The notes beneath the pieces were generated by a model, which saw only the letters and a program-made list of their open reading frames with translations, had not been told where the DNA came from and did not search any database. Shown here one piece after another: positions 2 to 13,546 of a stretch of 45,417 bases of DNA. Position 1 is the stretch's first letter; every line of letters starts with the position of its first letter. The position numbers and the translations under genes are program-made. Origin of the DNA: Bacillota bacterium. GTDB lineage: Bacteria > Bacillota > Dethiobacteria > DTU022. The stretch spans positions 1 to 45,417 of the forward strand of contig JAABTH010000015.1 of the NCBI GenBank assembly GCA_011389985.1, given 5' to 3'.

Positions 2-568
2 AAAATTGAAACCAGTGGAAAAACATTAATAAAACAGCCTGCCATACTGAGAAACTGGTGGCGAGACATATACATTAGTCCTCAGGAGGTTATTTTTGAT
101 AAGCCTGGTTCAACTTTTGAATTGACCAAAGGTGATACTTTTAACTATAATAATTATCAAATACTTTTTCGTGATTTAGAGGTTAATCATAACTATGATC
201 AAATAACCGATAGCGTTGAGATTGGTGCTATATTGGAAGTTTATAAAAATAATGAAATGGAAATTATTATTCCATTCCTTAAAATGGAAGGCAATACACA
301 GTATAGAGAGGGAGTAACCTTACCCGGAAGCAAAGAGAAGATCTTTCTGAATAATGTCGATCCTTCACAGGGAACAGTTCAGCTTGGGTTTGATTCAGAA
401 TCTTTTACTACTGTTGAGGTCCTTATTGCCGAGATAAAGTTTAAACCTTTTATTTCAGTATTAGGTTTGGGAGCGCTATTATTAATCATTGGCATCGCTC
501 TTGCCGTCTGGCGGCGATTAATTTCAAATCCACAGAACAAAAAAATGTTAGATAGAAAAAGGAAATAA
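2..568 (+). CDS. CcmF-like cytochrome c heme lyase subunit, C-terminal part (cut by window start)
   Basis: The reading frame is open from base 2 to the stop at 566-568, so the gene begins outside the window. The motif PAILRNWWRDIYISP near residues 14-28 of the visible part matches the conserved tryptophan- and aspartate-rich stretch of CcmF/NrfE proteins. These membrane proteins help attach heme to CxxCH motifs of exported apocytochromes. A soluble beta-rich stretch follows, then one transmembrane segment near the end (FISVLGLGALLLIIGIALAV) and a basic tail, the usual CcmF C-terminal layout. The next gene encodes a di-heme c-type cytochrome, which fits a maturation role. An internal TTG at 122 could be mistaken for a start but lies inside the conserved domain. 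The identification is by motif only; other heme lyase relatives remain possible. Confidence 0.75.
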   Translation, partial: KIETSGKTLIKQPAILRNWWRDIYISPQEVIFDKPGSTFELTKGDTFNYNNYQILFRDLEVNHNYDQITDSVEIGAILEVYKNNEMEIIIPFLKMEGNTQYREGVTLPGSKEKIFLNNVDPSQGTVQLGFDSESFTTVEVLIAEIKFKPFISVLGLGALLLIIGIALAVWRRLISNPQNKKMLDRKRK

Positions 569-904
569 GCTACTTTATATCGAATATGACATCAAGGTAA
601 TTGTAAATATGTCAAATAGCTGAAATTACTTAAAAGCTGTTGCATTTTTATAAATAAATGGTACTTTATAATTATATTAAGGAGTCAAAATAAAAATTTA
701 ATATAACCGTAGATAATTTGCAAAATTTTTTTGGAAGCAAAAGTTATTTTATTCACATAATGATATTTAGTCTATCTATTTAGTGGGTAATAAAAGTGTA
801 AATATATTAGCAAGAGATTTTAGCATTTGGAGGTGATATAAGGTTAGGTTGTTTATACTCGTGTCAGAAAGGTCTGAATCATATTTTACTAGGAGGTAGA
901 GAAA
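569..904. other. AT-rich intergenic region without a recognisable gene
   Basis: These 336 bases between the ccmF-like gene and the cytochrome gene are very AT-rich. I see no open frame with convincing protein features, no tRNA-like fold and no strong hairpin with a T-run. TATAAT-like strings occur (for example 667-672) but none has a good -35 box at 16-18 bp, so I do not call a promoter. A very short ORF after GGAGGTGAT near 831 is possible but unsupported. The last bases contain the AGGAGG ribosome binding site (892-897) of the next gene. Confidence 0.5.
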
Positions 905-1705
905 TTGGCAGAAGAAAAATTAACAGAAGAAAGAAATGATTCAAGTAGACGGCGATTTCTAAAAAATGCCGGAATTACGGTTGCAGGGATAGCTGTAGCT
1001 TCCAGTGGCCTTGGTATATTGTTATCAGGTTGTGAGACAAGTGATAACGCTAGCCAGGCTGCAGTTGTAGTACCTGAATGGCCATGGCCTTATACCAAGA
1101 TTGATCCTGACGTTGCTGCTGAAAGGGCTTATTTAAGTTATCAGGAGTCCGGCTGAGGCTACGGTTGCGCCGATGGTATCATCGGCACGTTGCAGGATGA
1201 AATCGGTCATCCCTATAACATGGTTCCGCAAAAGGCATTTCTGTGGGGCAGTGGTGGCGGTTATAAGTGGGGGGCTACATGTGGTGCTTTAACTTCGGCG
1301 GCTCAAATTATTAATCTTATGCATGATAAAGAAACTTCTTCAGCGATGATTAATAACTTATACGCATGGTATAGCCAGGAAGAACATCCGAATTATCAGC
1401 CTGAGGGACAAGTTGTCACCAGTGTTTCCGACTCAGTCCTTTGCCATGTGTCAGTCTCAACCTGGTTAGCTGCGAGTGGTGTTGATGAAAGCGATCCCCT
1501 GAAGAAGAAACGTTGCGGTGGCCTTACTGCAGATGTGGTAAAATTAACTGTTGAGATGATGAATAATCATGCTGATGGCAACTTTGCGGCTATGTTTGCG
1601 CCGGCGGCAACAGTAGATGGATGCATGTCCTGTCACAAAGAAGATACAGTAGGAAAAGACGACTGTTCAATCTGTCATGAAGAAAAAGAAGTTGAACACT
1701 GGTAG
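905..1705 (+). CDS. Selenocysteine-containing split-Soret-type di-heme cytochrome c, Tat-exported lipoprotein
   Basis: The gene is read as one 266-residue frame from TTG 905 (AGGAGG at 892-897) through an in-frame UGA at 1154-1156, decoded as selenocysteine (Sec84), to TAG 1703-1705. Residues 13-43 form a twin-arginine signal (SSRRRFLK), a hydrophobic stretch and a lipobox LSGC with Cys43, predicting a lipoprotein outside the membrane. The core has U-G-Y-G-C-A-D-G (residues 84-91), then Cys126 in WGATCGAL, Cys180 and Cys204: the C-GCAxxG-C-C family pattern with Sec at the first cysteine. Two CxxCH heme sites (Cys240-His244 and Cys254-His258) close the protein, as in split-Soret cytochromes c. 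A stem-loop just after the UGA fits a bacterial SECIS. Reading the UGA as a stop would leave an 83-residue fragment and a headless heme domain. The exact redox partner is unknown. Confidence 0.85.
1157..1190 (+). promoter_or_regulatory. Candidate bacterial SECIS element
   Basis: After the UGA at 1154-1156 a perfect 7-bp stem forms between GCCGATG (1169-1175) and CATCGGC (1180-1186). Its loop is GTAT (1176-1179). A mismatch and then two more pairs (1167/1188 and the wobble 1166/1189) can extend it. The apical loop begins 19 nt after the UGA, and its first base is G. Both values fall within the general description of bacterial SECIS elements: a short loop with an early G, 16-37 nt from the UGA. 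In bacteria such a hairpin binds SelB and delivers selenocysteinyl-tRNA. No selA, selB, selC or selD gene is visible in this window. Confidence 0.75.
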
Positions 1706-2034: not shown

Positions 2035-2778
2035 TTGCTGGAAATCATCGATTTGAAAGTTAAAGCGGGCCAGGAGACAATTCTTAAAGGGATTTCCCTG
2101 AAAATACCTAAAGGTGAAACTCATATATTATTGGGGCCCAATGGGTCGGGTAAAACAACCCTGCTTAAAGTAATTATGGGCATGGGATCATTTCAGATAA
2201 CCGGTAGAATACTATTCGATGGAGAAGATATTACAGACCTGCCGCTCGACGAAAGAGCCAGACGGGGAATCGGTATAGCCATGCAAAAGTCTCCTGTTGT
2301 TCCGGAAGTGACTCTTGGCGGATTGCTGGAAATGATCCAGGAAAAACATGGCAACGGTAAGCTCGAAGAAAGGATTGAAGCTTTGAATTGCCATTATCTT
2401 TTAAAGCGTGGTGTTAACGAGAATTTTTCCGGCGGTGAGATGAAGCGCTCGGAAATGCTTCAGCTAATCGCCCAAAATCCCAAATTTGTTTTAGTCGATG
2501 AGCCAGAATCAGGAGTAGATCTTGATAACATCGTGGTGATCGGGGAAGCTTTGAAGAGTTTACTTAAGCCCCCAAGGGAAATCGATAAAAGCAGGTCTGC
2601 CCTGGTGATAACTCACACCGGACGCATTATGGAGTACTTAAATGCTGATAAAGGTTATGTTTTGGTCGGTGGTCAAATAGTTTGCTCGGGTAATCCCTGG
2701 GATTTATTTGAAGAAGTTAACAAGCATGGTTTTGAAGGATGTCTGACGTGTGGGAGGTGTAGCCATGAAGGAGTATAA
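2035..2778 (+). CDS. sufC: SufC-like ABC ATPase of Fe-S cluster assembly
   Basis: This 247-residue ATPase powers the SUF scaffold that builds Fe-S clusters in the cytoplasm. Visible motifs are Walker A GPNGSGKTT (residues 34-42), the signature FSGGEMKR, Walker B FVLVDEPESGVD and the switch histidine in VITHTG. The family-specific length and absence of membrane partners separate it from transporter ATPases. The protein ends in a cysteine cluster, CLTCGRC, which I recall from the reduced two-gene SufCB systems of archaea and clostridia. The TTG start is chosen for AAGGAGG at 2021-2027. It overlaps the next gene by 14 bp, so the pair is translationally coupled. SufS, SufU and SufE are not seen here, so sulfur must come from a cysteine desulfurase encoded elsewhere. 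Confidence 0.88.
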   Translation: MLEIIDLKVKAGQETILKGISLKIPKGETHILLGPNGSGKTTLLKVIMGMGSFQITGRILFDGEDITDLPLDERARRGIGIAMQKSPVVPEVTLGGLLEMIQEKHGNGKLEERIEALNCHYLLKRGVNENFSGGEMKRSEMLQLIAQNPKFVLVDEPESGVDLDNIVVIGEALKSLLKPPREIDKSRSALVITHTGRIMEYLNADKGYVLVGGQIVCSGNPWDLFEEVNKHGFEGCLTCGRCSHEGV

Positions 2779-4003
2779 TATGATTCTGAAAGAGAAAGCA
2801 AAAAAAGCGCTTCATAAAAAAGCCGCTTATGGGTCGGACTTAGAGCTGTCTGCTTCGGTTTCAGATCAGAAAGAGCAGCCCCTGGAATCTCTGGATAATC
2901 TGGATAAAAGAATTAAAGAGGTTTCTTTGCTTTCAGGAATGATTACAGATGAAACAAAACGTTCTGGTTCTTTTTACCAAAAAGGCGATTCGGTTATTTA
3001 CGAGAAAGTTCAGGAGGCTTACAGTGGTAAGGTCGAAATTATGAAGATTGAGGATGCGCTGCAAAAGCACTCCTGGCTGCAGGAATATTGGTGGCAGATG
3101 GTCCCGGTGGATATGGACAAATATACAGCCCAGGTTGAACTGTTAGGCCGGGGTGGATATTTTATACGAATTTTGCCGGGGGCAAAAGTTGACAAACCAA
3201 TTCAATCCTGCTTACTTTTGGATGAGAGCGGTTCCAGCCAGAGGGTTCATAATATCATAGTGGCTGAAGAAGGCTCACAGGCACAAATCATAACGGGCTG
3301 CACGGTCAGCCCTGACATAAAGAATGGGTTTCATTTGGGAGTCTCCGAGTTTTATATCAAAAAAGGGGCAGAACTTACATTTACCATGGTCCACAATTGG
3401 GCTGAGGATTTTCATGTCAGGCCGCGGACAGGTATCCTGGTGGAGGAAGACGGAAGTTTCATTAATAATTATTTACTGTTACAGCCGGTTCGCTCCATTC
3501 AATCGTACCCTCGTGCTGTTTTAGCGGGTAAAAGGTCAAAGGTTCGCTTTAATACAATTGTTTACGGGCAGGGACAGTCTGAATTGGATCTGGGGTCACT
3601 GATTGAATTAAAAGGCAGTGGAACCACAGGTGATTCTATCAGCCGCGCCTTAGGGACTGAACAGTCCAATATAATAATGAGAGGCCGCTTAAAGGCTTAT
3701 AATAACAAAGCCCGAGCCCACCTGGAATGCCGGGGAATGCTGCTTTCCACAGAAGCTGTCATGGATGCTATTCCTGAATTATCAGTTGTCGGCGCCCCTG
3801 AAGCTGATCTCACTCATGAAGCTGCCGTTGGACCGGTGGATGAAGAGGCAGTCGAGTACTTAATGTCCAGAGGGCTTAAGCAGGATGAAGCAGTCAGTGC
3901 AATTCTGCAGGGATTTATGCATACGGGAATCAAAGGTTTGCCGGAAATACTTGAGGAAACTCTTTCTAAAATATTTAGCAATATGTCAGAAAAAGTAATA
4001 TAA
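2765..4003 (+). CDS. SufB/SufD-family Fe-S cluster assembly scaffold
   Basis: This 412-residue protein is the beta-helix scaffold partner of the preceding SufC-like ATPase. The central region holds the repetitive beta-strand pattern of the SufBD core, including RVHNIIVAEEGSQAQIITGC and RSKVRFNTIVYGQG. The C-terminal segment DLTHEAAVGPVDEEAVEYL matches the conserved SufB/SufD tail with the cluster-associated histidine and glutamate, followed by an MSRGL motif. The start at ATG 2765 is preferred over GTG 2750 because GGGAGGTG (2751-2758) sits 6-7 bases upstream of it. Only one SufB/D-type gene is present, so it probably works as a homodimer in a minimal SufCB complex. The next gene is convergent and unrelated. 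Confidence 0.85.
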   Translation: MKEYNMILKEKAKKALHKKAAYGSDLELSASVSDQKEQPLESLDNLDKRIKEVSLLSGMITDETKRSGSFYQKGDSVIYEKVQEAYSGKVEIMKIEDALQKHSWLQEYWWQMVPVDMDKYTAQVELLGRGGYFIRILPGAKVDKPIQSCLLLDESGSSQRVHNIIVAEEGSQAQIITGCTVSPDIKNGFHLGVSEFYIKKGAELTFTMVHNWAEDFHVRPRTGILVEEDGSFINNYLLLQPVRSIQSYPRAVLAGKRSKVRFNTIVYGQGQSELDLGSLIELKGSGTTGDSISRALGTEQSNIIMRGRLKAYNNKARAHLECRGMLLSTEAVMDAIPELSVVGAPEADLTHEAAVGPVDEEAVEYLMSRGLKQDEAVSAILQGFMHTGIKGLPEILEETLSKIFSNMSEKVI

Positions 4004-5080: not shown

Positions 5081-5138
5081 ATCACTATATAACTAAATAT
5101 TTAAATATGTAATGATTAATAAGGAAGGTGCCTGTTTA

Positions 5139-5465
5139 ATGAGAAACCTGGTAAATTTCTTTAAAGCGATGGGTGAGGATACCAGAGTCAAAATTATAAC
5201 TATGCTGCTGAAGGAGGAGATGTGTATCTGTGAGCTGATCGAAGAGCTTGGCTTATCGCAATCGGCAGTATCGCATCATGTAAAAATATTGAAGCAGGCT
5301 GAAATAGTAAACGATCGCCGTGACGGGAAGTGGACTTATTATTCGATTAATAAAGAAGGTTTTGCTGCACACCTGGACAGTTTACATGAAAAGTTTATCA
5401 TTCCAATCGAGAAATATAAATACGAACAAAAGTTAGAGCCCCAGGCCGAGTGTGTTCAGCGCTAA
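5139..5465 (+). CDS. arsR: ArsR-family metalloregulator, arsenite-responsive type
   Basis: This 108-residue winged-helix repressor should control the downstream arsenic genes. The DNA-recognition helix region reads LSQSAVSHHVKIL, followed by the wing DRRDGKWTYY. Cys29 and Cys31 in EEMCICEL match the CxC arsenite-binding pair of classic ArsR, whose loading with As(III) releases the DNA. The start at ATG 5139 is chosen because GGAAGG (5123-5128) sits about 10 bases upstream and the protein then begins at the usual family position. An in-frame ATG at 5112 lacks a ribosome binding site. The gene is followed by acr3 and arsC after a 161-base gap, so it may share a transcript with them or act on a second promoter there. 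Confidence 0.88.
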   Translation: MRNLVNFFKAMGEDTRVKIITMLLKEEMCICELIEELGLSQSAVSHHVKILKQAEIVNDRRDGKWTYYSINKEGFAAHLDSLHEKFIIPIEKYKYEQKLEPQAECVQR

Positions 5466-5626
5466 ACTTAATAAATAAGTAGGATTATCTACCTGCATGG
5501 TTGGCCAAAAAAATCGAAGAATTTCTGGTCAGTGCGATAAATCAGGTTGCAGAAGATCACTAAACATCGTTTATTGTGATTGTTTCTGCACAAGCTAAAT
5601 ACTAATTGATGAGGTGATTGTAAAAA
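5466..5626 (+). other. Spacer between arsR and acr3 with a possible gene scrap
   Basis: In frame from about 5484 to a TAA near 5563 the sequence reads as a 26-residue peptide, DYLPAWLAKKIEEFLVSAIN and onward to VAEDH, preceded directly by a stop and without a start codon. It looks like the amphipathic C-terminal helix of a lost gene, but it is too short to identify. The end of the spacer carries the GAGGTGAT ribosome binding site of acr3. I see no clear terminator or strong promoter. Confidence 0.25.
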
Positions 5627-6712
5627 ATGAGTGTACAAAAAGAATATGAACTTGGATTTTTTCATAAGTATTTAACAATTTGGGTTGCGCTCTGTATCAT
5701 AATCGGCATCGGCCTGGGAGCAGCTTTCCCCGGGGCAGCCCAGTTTCTCAATTCTCTTTCAATAGCCCAGGTAAATATTCCGGTCGCCATATTCCTCTTT
5801 GCCATGATGTACCCGATTATGGTTCAGATCGATTTCAGCGAGGTGGTTAATGCCGTTAAAGCGCCTAAGGCGGTGCTCCTTACTCTGATCATCAACTGGG
5901 GAATCAAGCCTTTTACTATGTTTTTCTTTGCCTGGCTCTTTATGCGTGTCATCTGGGCTCCCTTTATCGGTTACGAAATAGCCGGTGAATATATTGCCGG
6001 GATGATCCTCTTAGGCATTGCTCCCTGCACGGCCATGGTTTTGGTCTGGAGCTATCTGGCCCGCGGCTTTATGGGTTTAACCCTTGTTTTAGTCGCTCTG
6101 AACTCGCTGACAATGCTTGTTCTCTATGCCCCGCTTGGTAACTTCCTGCTGGGAGTTGCCGAAATGTCTGTGCCATTTATGACTATTTTCCTCAGTGTTA
6201 TGCTCTATGTCGGCGTTTCGCTCGTTGCCGGATATGTGAGCCGTACCCGGCTGATTAAAACCCGTGGTATTGATTGGTACGAGCGTGTATTCCTCAAAAA
6301 TATGGGTACCATCTCGATCATTGCCCTGTTGGCCACTTTGGTTTTCTTATTTATGCTTCAGGGCGGGGTTATTCTTGAGGCTCCGCTTGTTGTCGGCATG
6401 ATTGCCGTGCCGCTGATTATCCAGACTTTAGTAATTTTCTTCATTGGTTATGTTGTGGCTAAATTTATAGGTCTCAATTATGAAGAGGCCGCTCCAGCGT
6501 CTATGATCGGCGCCAGCAACCATTTCGAAGTGGCCATTGCCACTGCGGTTACAGTATTTGGGCTTACCTCGGGCGCCGCTCTCTCTACGGTTGTTGGTGT
6601 GCTCATTGAAGTGCCGATTATGCTTGTCTTGGTACGCATCTGTTTGCGCACCCGCAGCTGGTTCCCGGCCATGAAAAAAGCACCAATTGGAGGAATAACT
6701 AATGAACAGTGA
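5627..6712 (+). CDS. acr3: Arsenite efflux transporter, ACR3 family
   Basis: This 361-residue integral membrane protein exports arsenite using the proton motive force. It has about ten hydrophobic segments. The segment GIAPCTAMVLVWSYLA contains Cys134, the conserved cysteine of ACR3 carriers that is needed for arsenite transport. A second conserved segment, GASNHFEVAIATAV, lies near residue 296. ATG 5627 follows GAGGTGAT at a workable distance and gives the normal family N-terminus. It is preceded by arsR and overlaps arsC by 11 bp, which signals an operon with coupled translation. The protein belongs to the ACR3 type, not the unrelated ArsB type. Confidence 0.95.
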   Translation: MSVQKEYELGFFHKYLTIWVALCIIIGIGLGAAFPGAAQFLNSLSIAQVNIPVAIFLFAMMYPIMVQIDFSEVVNAVKAPKAVLLTLIINWGIKPFTMFFFAWLFMRVIWAPFIGYEIAGEYIAGMILLGIAPCTAMVLVWSYLARGFMGLTLVLVALNSLTMLVLYAPLGNFLLGVAEMSVPFMTIFLSVMLYVGVSLVAGYVSRTRLIKTRGIDWYERVFLKNMGTISIIALLATLVFLFMLQGGVILEAPLVVGMIAVPLIIQTLVIFFIGYVVAKFIGLNYEEAAPASMIGASNHFEVAIATAVTVFGLTSGAALSTVVGVLIEVPIMLVLVRICLRTRSWFPAMKKAPIGGITNEQ

Positions 6713-7130
6713 ACGGGATCAAAAACGGGTGCTCTTTCTCTGCACCGGTAATTCTGCCCGCAGCCAGATGGCTGAAGGGTTTCTCAAAGCGCTGGGTGGC
6801 GGCCATTTTGCTGTCAGCAGCGCCGGCACTGCCCCGGTAGGGGTAAACCCCCTGGCAATCAAGGCGATGGCCGAAGTGGGTATTGACATCAGTAGCCACA
6901 CTTCTGATGCAGTAAGTGCCGATCTACTGGCCAATATCGATTTGCTAGTTACTCTTTGCGGTGATGCCCGTGAAAACTGCCCCTTTGTTCCGGTTAAAGT
7001 TGAAAAACGTCACTGGCCGCTGGAAGATCCGGCCAGGGCCGAGGGTAGTGAAGAGCAAAAACTGCAGCGTTTCCGTGAAATCAGGGATAAGATTAAAGGT
7101 TATGTGGAAAAATTGATTACAGAAAGCTGA
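6702..7130 (+). CDS. arsC: Arsenate reductase, thioredoxin-coupled (low-molecular-weight phosphatase fold)
   Basis: This 142-residue enzyme reduces arsenate to arsenite, which the neighbouring ACR3 pump then exports. The P-loop CTGNSARS carries the nucleophile Cys14. The redox pair that resolves the arsenic adduct is Cys86 and Cys93 in LCGDARENC, and the catalytic aspartate lies in LEDPA (Asp109). These three cysteines define the thioredoxin-dependent ArsC of Gram-positive bacteria and exclude the glutaredoxin-dependent class. The gene starts inside the end of acr3. A hairpin terminator follows 27 bases after its stop, closing the arsenic cluster. Confidence 0.95.
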   Translation: MNSERDQKRVLFLCTGNSARSQMAEGFLKALGGGHFAVSSAGTAPVGVNPLAIKAMAEVGIDISSHTSDAVSADLLANIDLLVTLCGDARENCPFVPVKVEKRHWPLEDPARAEGSEEQKLQRFREIRDKIKGYVEKLITES

Positions 7131-7157
7131 TTATGAACACCGAGGAATATTTAACTG

Positions 7158-7192
7158 AAAAAGTCCGAAGAGCTATGCTCTCCGGACTTTTT
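7158..7192 (+). terminator. Intrinsic terminator of the arsenic operon
   Basis: AAAAAGTCCG (7158-7167) pairs with CGGACTTTTT (7183-7192). One A-C mismatch and a further AGAGC/GCTCT stem close on a TAT loop. The right arm ends in five T residues. It stands between arsC and the promoter of the next gene. Confidence 0.85.
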
Positions 7193-13289: not shown

Positions 13290-13546
13290 TATCTTTATAG
13301 TGTACAATGATGATGGAGACAAGTAGGCGGAATCCAGCGCCGCTAAGGGAGGTCTAGCCGAGACTGCAAGCTAAACCCGGTGCTGCCTGTTGAAATTCAC
13401 TCCGGAGTTTCCTGCTGAACGGTTGTAAAAACCAGGTAGGCGGGAACGGGAATCCCGTTATTGATACCAAGAGAGCCTTAATTGACTAAATTGGGTGGTA
13501 CCGCGGAAGTTTTACTTTCGTCCCTCGGAAGAGGGTTTTTTTATTT
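13290..13546 (+). promoter_or_regulatory. T-box riboswitch controlling pheS-pheT
   Basis: The leader has the AGTAGG-type S-turn near 13322, a large stem I region, and the invariant T-box TGGGTGGTACCGCGG at 13492-13506. The overlapping terminator is CCCTC/GAGGG (about 13522-13535) followed by seven T residues. Uncharged tRNA-Phe binding would stabilise the antiterminator and allow synthesis of phenylalanyl-tRNA synthetase. The likely specifier is TTC (Phe) at 13396-13398, followed by the usual purine. The T-box itself is certain; the specifier is inferred from the regulated gene. Confidence 0.95.

Follow-up and report, generated by a model that had tools for sequence, protein, structure and literature searches.

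In the first part of the analyzed DNA (the window, meaning the whole stretch of 45,417 nucleotides), two open reading frames at positions 905-1156 and 1190-1705 lie in the same frame, with one TGA at the end of the first and then only 11 sense codons (1157-1189) before the second, as an earlier note on this DNA had pointed out. The question is whether this TGA ends a gene or is translated as selenocysteine (Sec), as that note proposed, within one cytochrome of the split-Soret type. From the comparison of sequences described below, the UGA at 1154-1156 is almost certainly read as Sec at residue 84 of a split-Soret cytochrome c. The features of the read-through gene are as follows.

891-896, plus strand: Shine-Dalgarno sequence AGGAGG, 8 nt upstream of the TTG start (direct reading)
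905-1705, plus strand: proposed Sec-containing split-Soret cytochrome c gene (266 aa, U84; TTG start, TAG stop)
944-964, plus strand: Tat motif SRRRFLK (S14-K20), R15 invariant in an alignment of 20 sequences
1022-1033, plus strand: lipobox LSGC, ending in C43, a Cys shared by 18 of 20 homologs
1154-1156, plus strand: in-frame TGA, proposed Sec residue 84 (U84)
1280-1282, plus strand: invariant Cys126, C-G-A motif
1442-1447, plus strand: invariant Cys180 followed by His181, LCH motif
1514-1516, plus strand: invariant Cys204, RCGG
1622-1636, plus strand: haem c site 1, CMSCH, residues 240-244
1664-1678, plus strand: haem c site 2, CSICH, residues 254-258

Thus, all of the family features claimed for the two sides of the TGA are present, the Tat signal and lipobox before it and the three cysteines and two CxxCH sites after it. 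The read-through protein scores 19.3 against the cut-off of 16.7 of the TAT_signal_seq model and has the RR motif, a hydrophobic stretch and the lipobox Cys; from these motifs, the 266-residue product is predicted to be a Tat-exported lipoprotein. Cys88 (1166-1168), which makes a U-x-x-x-C pair with U84, occurs only in the window protein among the 20 aligned.

Split-Soret cytochromes c are characterized by a split Soret band and by parallel stacked haems, with a His supplied from the other monomer. Residues 59-258 of the window protein match the cytochrome of this type in PDB entry 1h21 (E value of 2.1e-31), the sole PDB relative by sequence, and a Cys of 1h21 aligns exactly with U84; the three other cysteines and both haem sites are common to the two proteins. 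The AlphaFold2 model (pLDDT of 80) likewise has 1h21 as its only significant PDB match (E value of 1e-14, TM scores of 0.70 and 0.78), and the split-Soret identity suggested earlier therefore holds both by sequence and by predicted fold. NF047622, the NCBIfam equivalog for split-Soret cytochromes, matches nearly the full length (E value of 2e-51), with a score of 174.9 bits that does not reach its cut-off of 400 bits; thus the window protein is a distant relative of the Desulfovibrio protein and not that equivalog. PF09719 (C_GCAxxG_C_C) scores 53.4 bits against the Pfam gathering score of 27, and its match begins at residue 86, just past U84; TIGR01909 stays below its curated cut-off (16.8 against 47.4 bits). 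The earlier note placed the TGA exactly at the first Cys of the C-GCAxxG-C-C family. This is exact for the first Cys of the split-Soret proteins, whereas correspondence with the first Cys of the Pfam family needs a four-residue insertion: in the short C-GCAxxG proteins, the first Cys or Sec is directly followed by AE or AQ and lies about four residues later than U84. Two loci in other genomes of the family (L134 and L140) encode such short, haem-less proteins, in which Sec occupies the position of the first Cys (FNUAEK).

The continuity of these alignments bears on the possibility that the locus holds two genes, one for a short Tat lipopeptide (905-1156) and another, from TTG 1190 on, for a haem protein. 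Each is formally open and has a start codon that could be used; however, the two parts together follow single-chain relatives and 1h21 in unbroken alignments, and the second frame has no export signal, which haem attachment requires. We consider two separate genes highly improbable. Stop-codon-based automatic annotation probably cuts genes of this Sec cytochrome family in two.

A search of contigs with the single window protein as a query found only one distant relative, where an alignment query would have done better, and in phage records the protein had no match. Among 98 genomes of the class, 16 (that of the window included) have the Sec form, in 17 genes, each of which has a single TGA at the column of U84. 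In a draw of 398 genomes from the phylum, the family was found in 53; at the loci inspected in this phylum, together with one Desulfobacteraceae locus (Cys), 35 genes have Sec at the column and 31 have Cys, with no other residue, and at least twelve families within the phylum include Sec carriers. In a second phylum, that of the Desulfobacteraceae relative, the family was found in 49 of the 395 genomes drawn, and the inspected loci gave 3 Sec, about 33 further Cys and nothing else. Over the two phyla and about 100 homologs, the column is therefore Sec in 38 genes and Cys in about 64, so that every homolog inspected has one or the other.

These counts also bear on a sequencing or assembly error, or a pseudogene mutation, in a codon that was truly TGT or TGC. 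In favour of such an error, the assembly is in draft state (45 contigs), and TGC or TGT stands at this codon in the majority of homologs from outside the class; however, 37 other genes in other genomes have TGA at exactly this column, those TGAs mostly precede a conserved hairpin that is absent from the Cys genes (see below), and the frame is otherwise intact. An error in the codon is thus extremely unlikely, and since independent genomes share the TGA and relatives carry exactly one at the same column, we rejected both error and a chance TGA.

The earlier note had presented a Sec-containing member with two haems and a Tat lipoprotein signal as worth describing. Such a member is indeed present in the window, but it is no singleton, the Sec form being widespread and repeatedly evolved. 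Some genomes hold both Sec and Cys paralogs. Tandem copies were seen as Sec beside Cys in L036 (at 1500 and 2859; G089), as two Sec copies in L105 and as four Cys copies in L109. The haem sites are missing from six Sec genes (L038, L089, L099, L100, L103 and L113), which suggests, as far as such haem-less relatives can tell, that the Sec/Cys core may work without haems.

If UGA is decoded as Sec, the genome should have the machinery, and tRNA-Sec(UCA), SelA, SelB and SelD are all encoded in the genome of the window. The tRNA-Sec gene (anticodon TCA) scores 72.5 bits against a cut-off of 47 and SelB 396 bits against 242; SelA and SelD adjoin SelB and were both recognized by reading the sequences, not by model search. 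In SelD itself, read upstream of the mechanical start, the catalytic site includes an in-frame TGA (SAGUAAKIG), which serves as a positive control for UGA-Sec decoding in this organism. This SelD gene (L019, minus strand near 6107, G000:C41) would be called from a false downstream GTG start. Beside the tRNA-Sec gene (7077-7166) is a gene for a YedE family putative selenium transporter (L020, 5671-6756, minus strand; 479 bits, above the cut-off). SelB was found in 30 of 32 Sec carriers and in 32 of 36 sampled Cys-only genomes, and hence its presence does not separate the two groups.

A general reassignment or suppression of UGA, for example as Trp (code 4), would also leave the frame open. However, TGA ends 13 of the 32 long open reading frames of the window, so that UGA is not globally reassigned; furthermore, homologs have Cys and never Trp at this column, and the Sec machinery is present. 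This possibility is negligible, and code 4 was rejected because TGA often serves as a stop here and the homologs have Cys. The earlier note named three observations that would speak against Sec, and none of them was made: selB and tRNA-Sec are present, the column is Cys or Sec, and the TGA is shared.

Decoding of UGA as Sec in bacteria involves a hairpin in the mRNA, and the window has the following candidate.

1169-1186, plus strand: bacterial SECIS hairpin, stem 1169-1174/1181-1186 (GCCGAU/AUCGGC), loop GGUAUC 1175-1180

The outer G-C of the loop GGUAUC can pair, and the loop starts 18-19 nt after the UGA. Published bSECIS criteria (PMC13188914) are a loop of 3-9 nt, a stem of 4-16 bp, a G in the first two loop positions, a loop 16-37 nt after the UGA and a minimum free energy of -7.5 or lower; the window has a 7-bp stem, the loop GUAU, a spacing of 19 and -10.6 kcal/mol, all within these limits. 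At stem positions 16-21 and 28-33 after the UGA, all six pairs are formed in 20 of 35 Sec genes, as against none of 31 Cys genes. In the main clade (25 sequences), 96.7% of cells are paired, with a covariation of 0.357 against 0.116 for shuffled data, and 20 cells keep pairing through two-sided changes (for example, G-C to C-G at the fourth pair) where 4.7 are expected by shuffling; slid partners pair in at most 50%. RNAalifold recovers the same hairpin unaided. For the best hairpin that conforms to the model, the mean energy is -9.2 kcal/mol among Sec genes as against -1.0 among the 31 Cys genes tested (Mann-Whitney p = 3e-12, a value that is too small, as the sequences are related and not independent). 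Because the hairpin region is coding, synonymous codons were resampled as a control, which gave a mean z of -1.51 for Sec genes and -0.20 for Cys genes; the former thus fold better than their resampled counterparts and the latter do not. The window hairpin by itself is only modestly better than its controls (z of -1.47 against shuffled and -1.61 against synonymous sequences) and is suggestive; the strength lies in the comparison. Separate Sec lineages have different hairpins: in some the distance from the UGA to the loop is 17-20 nt, and in others, which have AGUU loops, it is 31 nt. In a strict contiguous-stem search, two of the three Sec genes of the second phylum scored poorly (L196, -2.6; L197, none), perhaps owing to a mismatch or a longer loop. 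With the covariation, the Cys-gene control and the bSECIS criteria taken together, the SECIS-like stem-loop noticed earlier proves to be real.

A quick maximum-likelihood tree of 63 proteins was made with the Sec letters treated as gaps, by a short search and without bootstrap. This tree has one large Sec clade that holds the window protein, and four more groups with Sec lie among Cys relatives. It requires six changes between Sec and Cys, each imposed by branches whose SH-aLRT values are at least 95%. L033, which lies inside the large Sec clade, is a probable case of reversal from Sec to Cys, judging from its position in the tree.

The neighbours of the gene in the window are as follows.

2-568, plus strand: C-terminal part of a haem lyase of the CcmF type, for cytochrome c maturation; truncated at the contig edge
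2035-2778, plus strand: SufC-like ABC ATPase (Fe-S assembly)
2750-4003, plus strand: SufB/D core protein

The product of 2-568 has no direct family match of its own and is 32% identical to the C-terminus of the CcmF of L152 (TIGR00353/PF16327). Recurrent neighbours of the relatives are YedE/FdhT-like Sulf_transp proteins (11 loci), LysR regulators (9 loci) and TatC (8 loci); a LysR representative scores 226 against the cut-off of 250 of the selenium-metabolism LysR model. Such YedE/FdhT-like, selenium-type LysR and TatC neighbours were seen at L150, L153, L157, L158, L160, L161, L164, L099 and L100. The YedE/LysR pair is absent around the gene in the window. The YedE/FdhT-like neighbour is sometimes split into two adjacent genes; these were tried as Sec genes and rejected, as there is no internal UGA at the Cys site. 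Elsewhere in the window, genes for an ArsR-type regulator, an SBF-family (ACR3-like) transporter and an LMWPc-type arsenate reductase-like protein lie in a row (5112-7130) and are probably an arsenic resistance set, and a T-box leader (Rfam RF00230) scores just over the gathering score at 13301-13528.

The comparison strongly supports a reading in which SelB with Sec-tRNA-Sec binds the hairpin at 1169-1186 and Sec is inserted at the UGA at 1154-1156. The protein may then be exported by the Tat system and held by a lipid anchor at C43 outside the cytoplasmic membrane, and two c-type haems would be attached at the C-terminal CxxCH sites, as the motifs and the neighbouring CcmF end suggest. Sec84 and the invariant Cys126, Cys180 and Cys204 may form a second redox site of the fold, which could either ligate non-haem iron, as in the iron centre reported for the D. 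desulfuricans homolog, or trade electrons with the haems through a selenol/thiol pair. A more specific form of the first possibility, that Sec84 is a direct selenolate ligand of a non-haem iron (or Fe-S) centre in a dihaem cytochrome, with Cys and Sec swapped several times, seems rather unlikely on present evidence. The structure paper on the split-Soret cytochrome of D. desulfuricans reportedly proposed an Fe-S type cluster with cysteine ligation. If a metal centre is built in the cytoplasm, Tat export would suit it; that Tat export and the adjoining Fe-S assembly genes (2035-4003) fit a cofactor made there is a weak indication. Alternatively, Sec84 may be a nucleophilic or resolving selenol of the peroxidase or disulfide type, perhaps acting with Cys88, and not a metal ligand; we give this somewhat less than an even chance. 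Sec is the redox nucleophile in most selenoproteins (PMC13188914), and Cys88 is present in the window protein, though in it alone among the 20 aligned, residue 88 being V or A in 17 of them and thus not conserved. Furthermore, the four invariant positions U84, C126, C180 and C204 resemble a ligand set, and the PDB title of 1h21 names a novel iron centre, both of which argue for Sec84 as a ligand rather than a selenol.

Whichever the chemistry, the protein is probably a membrane-anchored periplasmic electron carrier. A role in electron transfer to sulfur or selenium species is a tentative possibility, raised because relatives often adjoin a YeeE/YedE-type sulfur/selenium transporter and a LysR resembling the regulator of selenium metabolism. 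Mutants in split-Soret cytochromes of D. alaskensis had no fitness effect under the energetic conditions tested (PMC4215793), and the D. desulfuricans gene is among those altered by nitric oxide (PMC5701242).

Members of the C-GCAxxG-C-C family with Sec have already been catalogued, so that, as the earlier note acknowledged, the idea is not new at the family level: C-GCAxxG-C-C forms 1 and 2 are entered under PF09719, with no motif given, in a 2026 catalogue of 119 selenoprotein families (PMC13188914), which also has Sec in other cytochromes (ExtKL and an octahaem family) and does not name split-Soret proteins. In the literature searched, with subscription papers and database records lying outside the search, no work joining "split-Soret" with selenocysteine or "seleno" words was found. 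The Sec branch of the split-Soret cytochromes thus appears to be undescribed in that literature, as do its wide spread, its recurrent origin and the SECIS elements that go with it, while earlier annotation in databases is possible. The present results add a widespread selenoprotein branch to a known cytochrome. Several independent Sec groups outside the main clade, with different SECIS builds, are a natural experiment on selenium versus sulfur at one position, which may lie at a non-haem iron centre, and side-by-side Sec and Cys paralogs, such as those of L036, would allow a direct test.

Among known systems, the ExtKL-type multihaem cytochrome (GSU2937+GSU2936; PMC1914089) is also a c-type cytochrome with an in-frame UGA proposed as Sec; however, it belongs to a different family, with five CxxCH in its N-terminal part and a C-terminal part that resembles no characterized protein. 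The Sec form of the tetrathionate reductase family octahaem cytochrome (TIGR04315, annotated in GenBank and included in the 2026 catalogue) is likewise a haem protein with Sec, but of a different family and haem number. The C-GCAxxG-C-C family (PF09719/TIGR01909) is nearer, since PF09719 matches the window protein over its cut-off and in short members from the same class Sec stands in the first Cys position; unlike the short proteins inspected, which are haem-less, the window protein adds two haem c sites and a Tat lipoprotein signal, and its Sec stands about four residues earlier in register. The closest system is the split-Soret cytochrome c of Desulfovibrio desulfuricans ATCC 27774 (1h21; Ssc, Ddes_2150), which shares the fold, a near full-length alignment, the four conserved non-haem Cys positions and the two C-terminal CxxCH sites, and which differs in having Cys at the position where the window protein would have Sec, the latter protein having a lipobox in addition.
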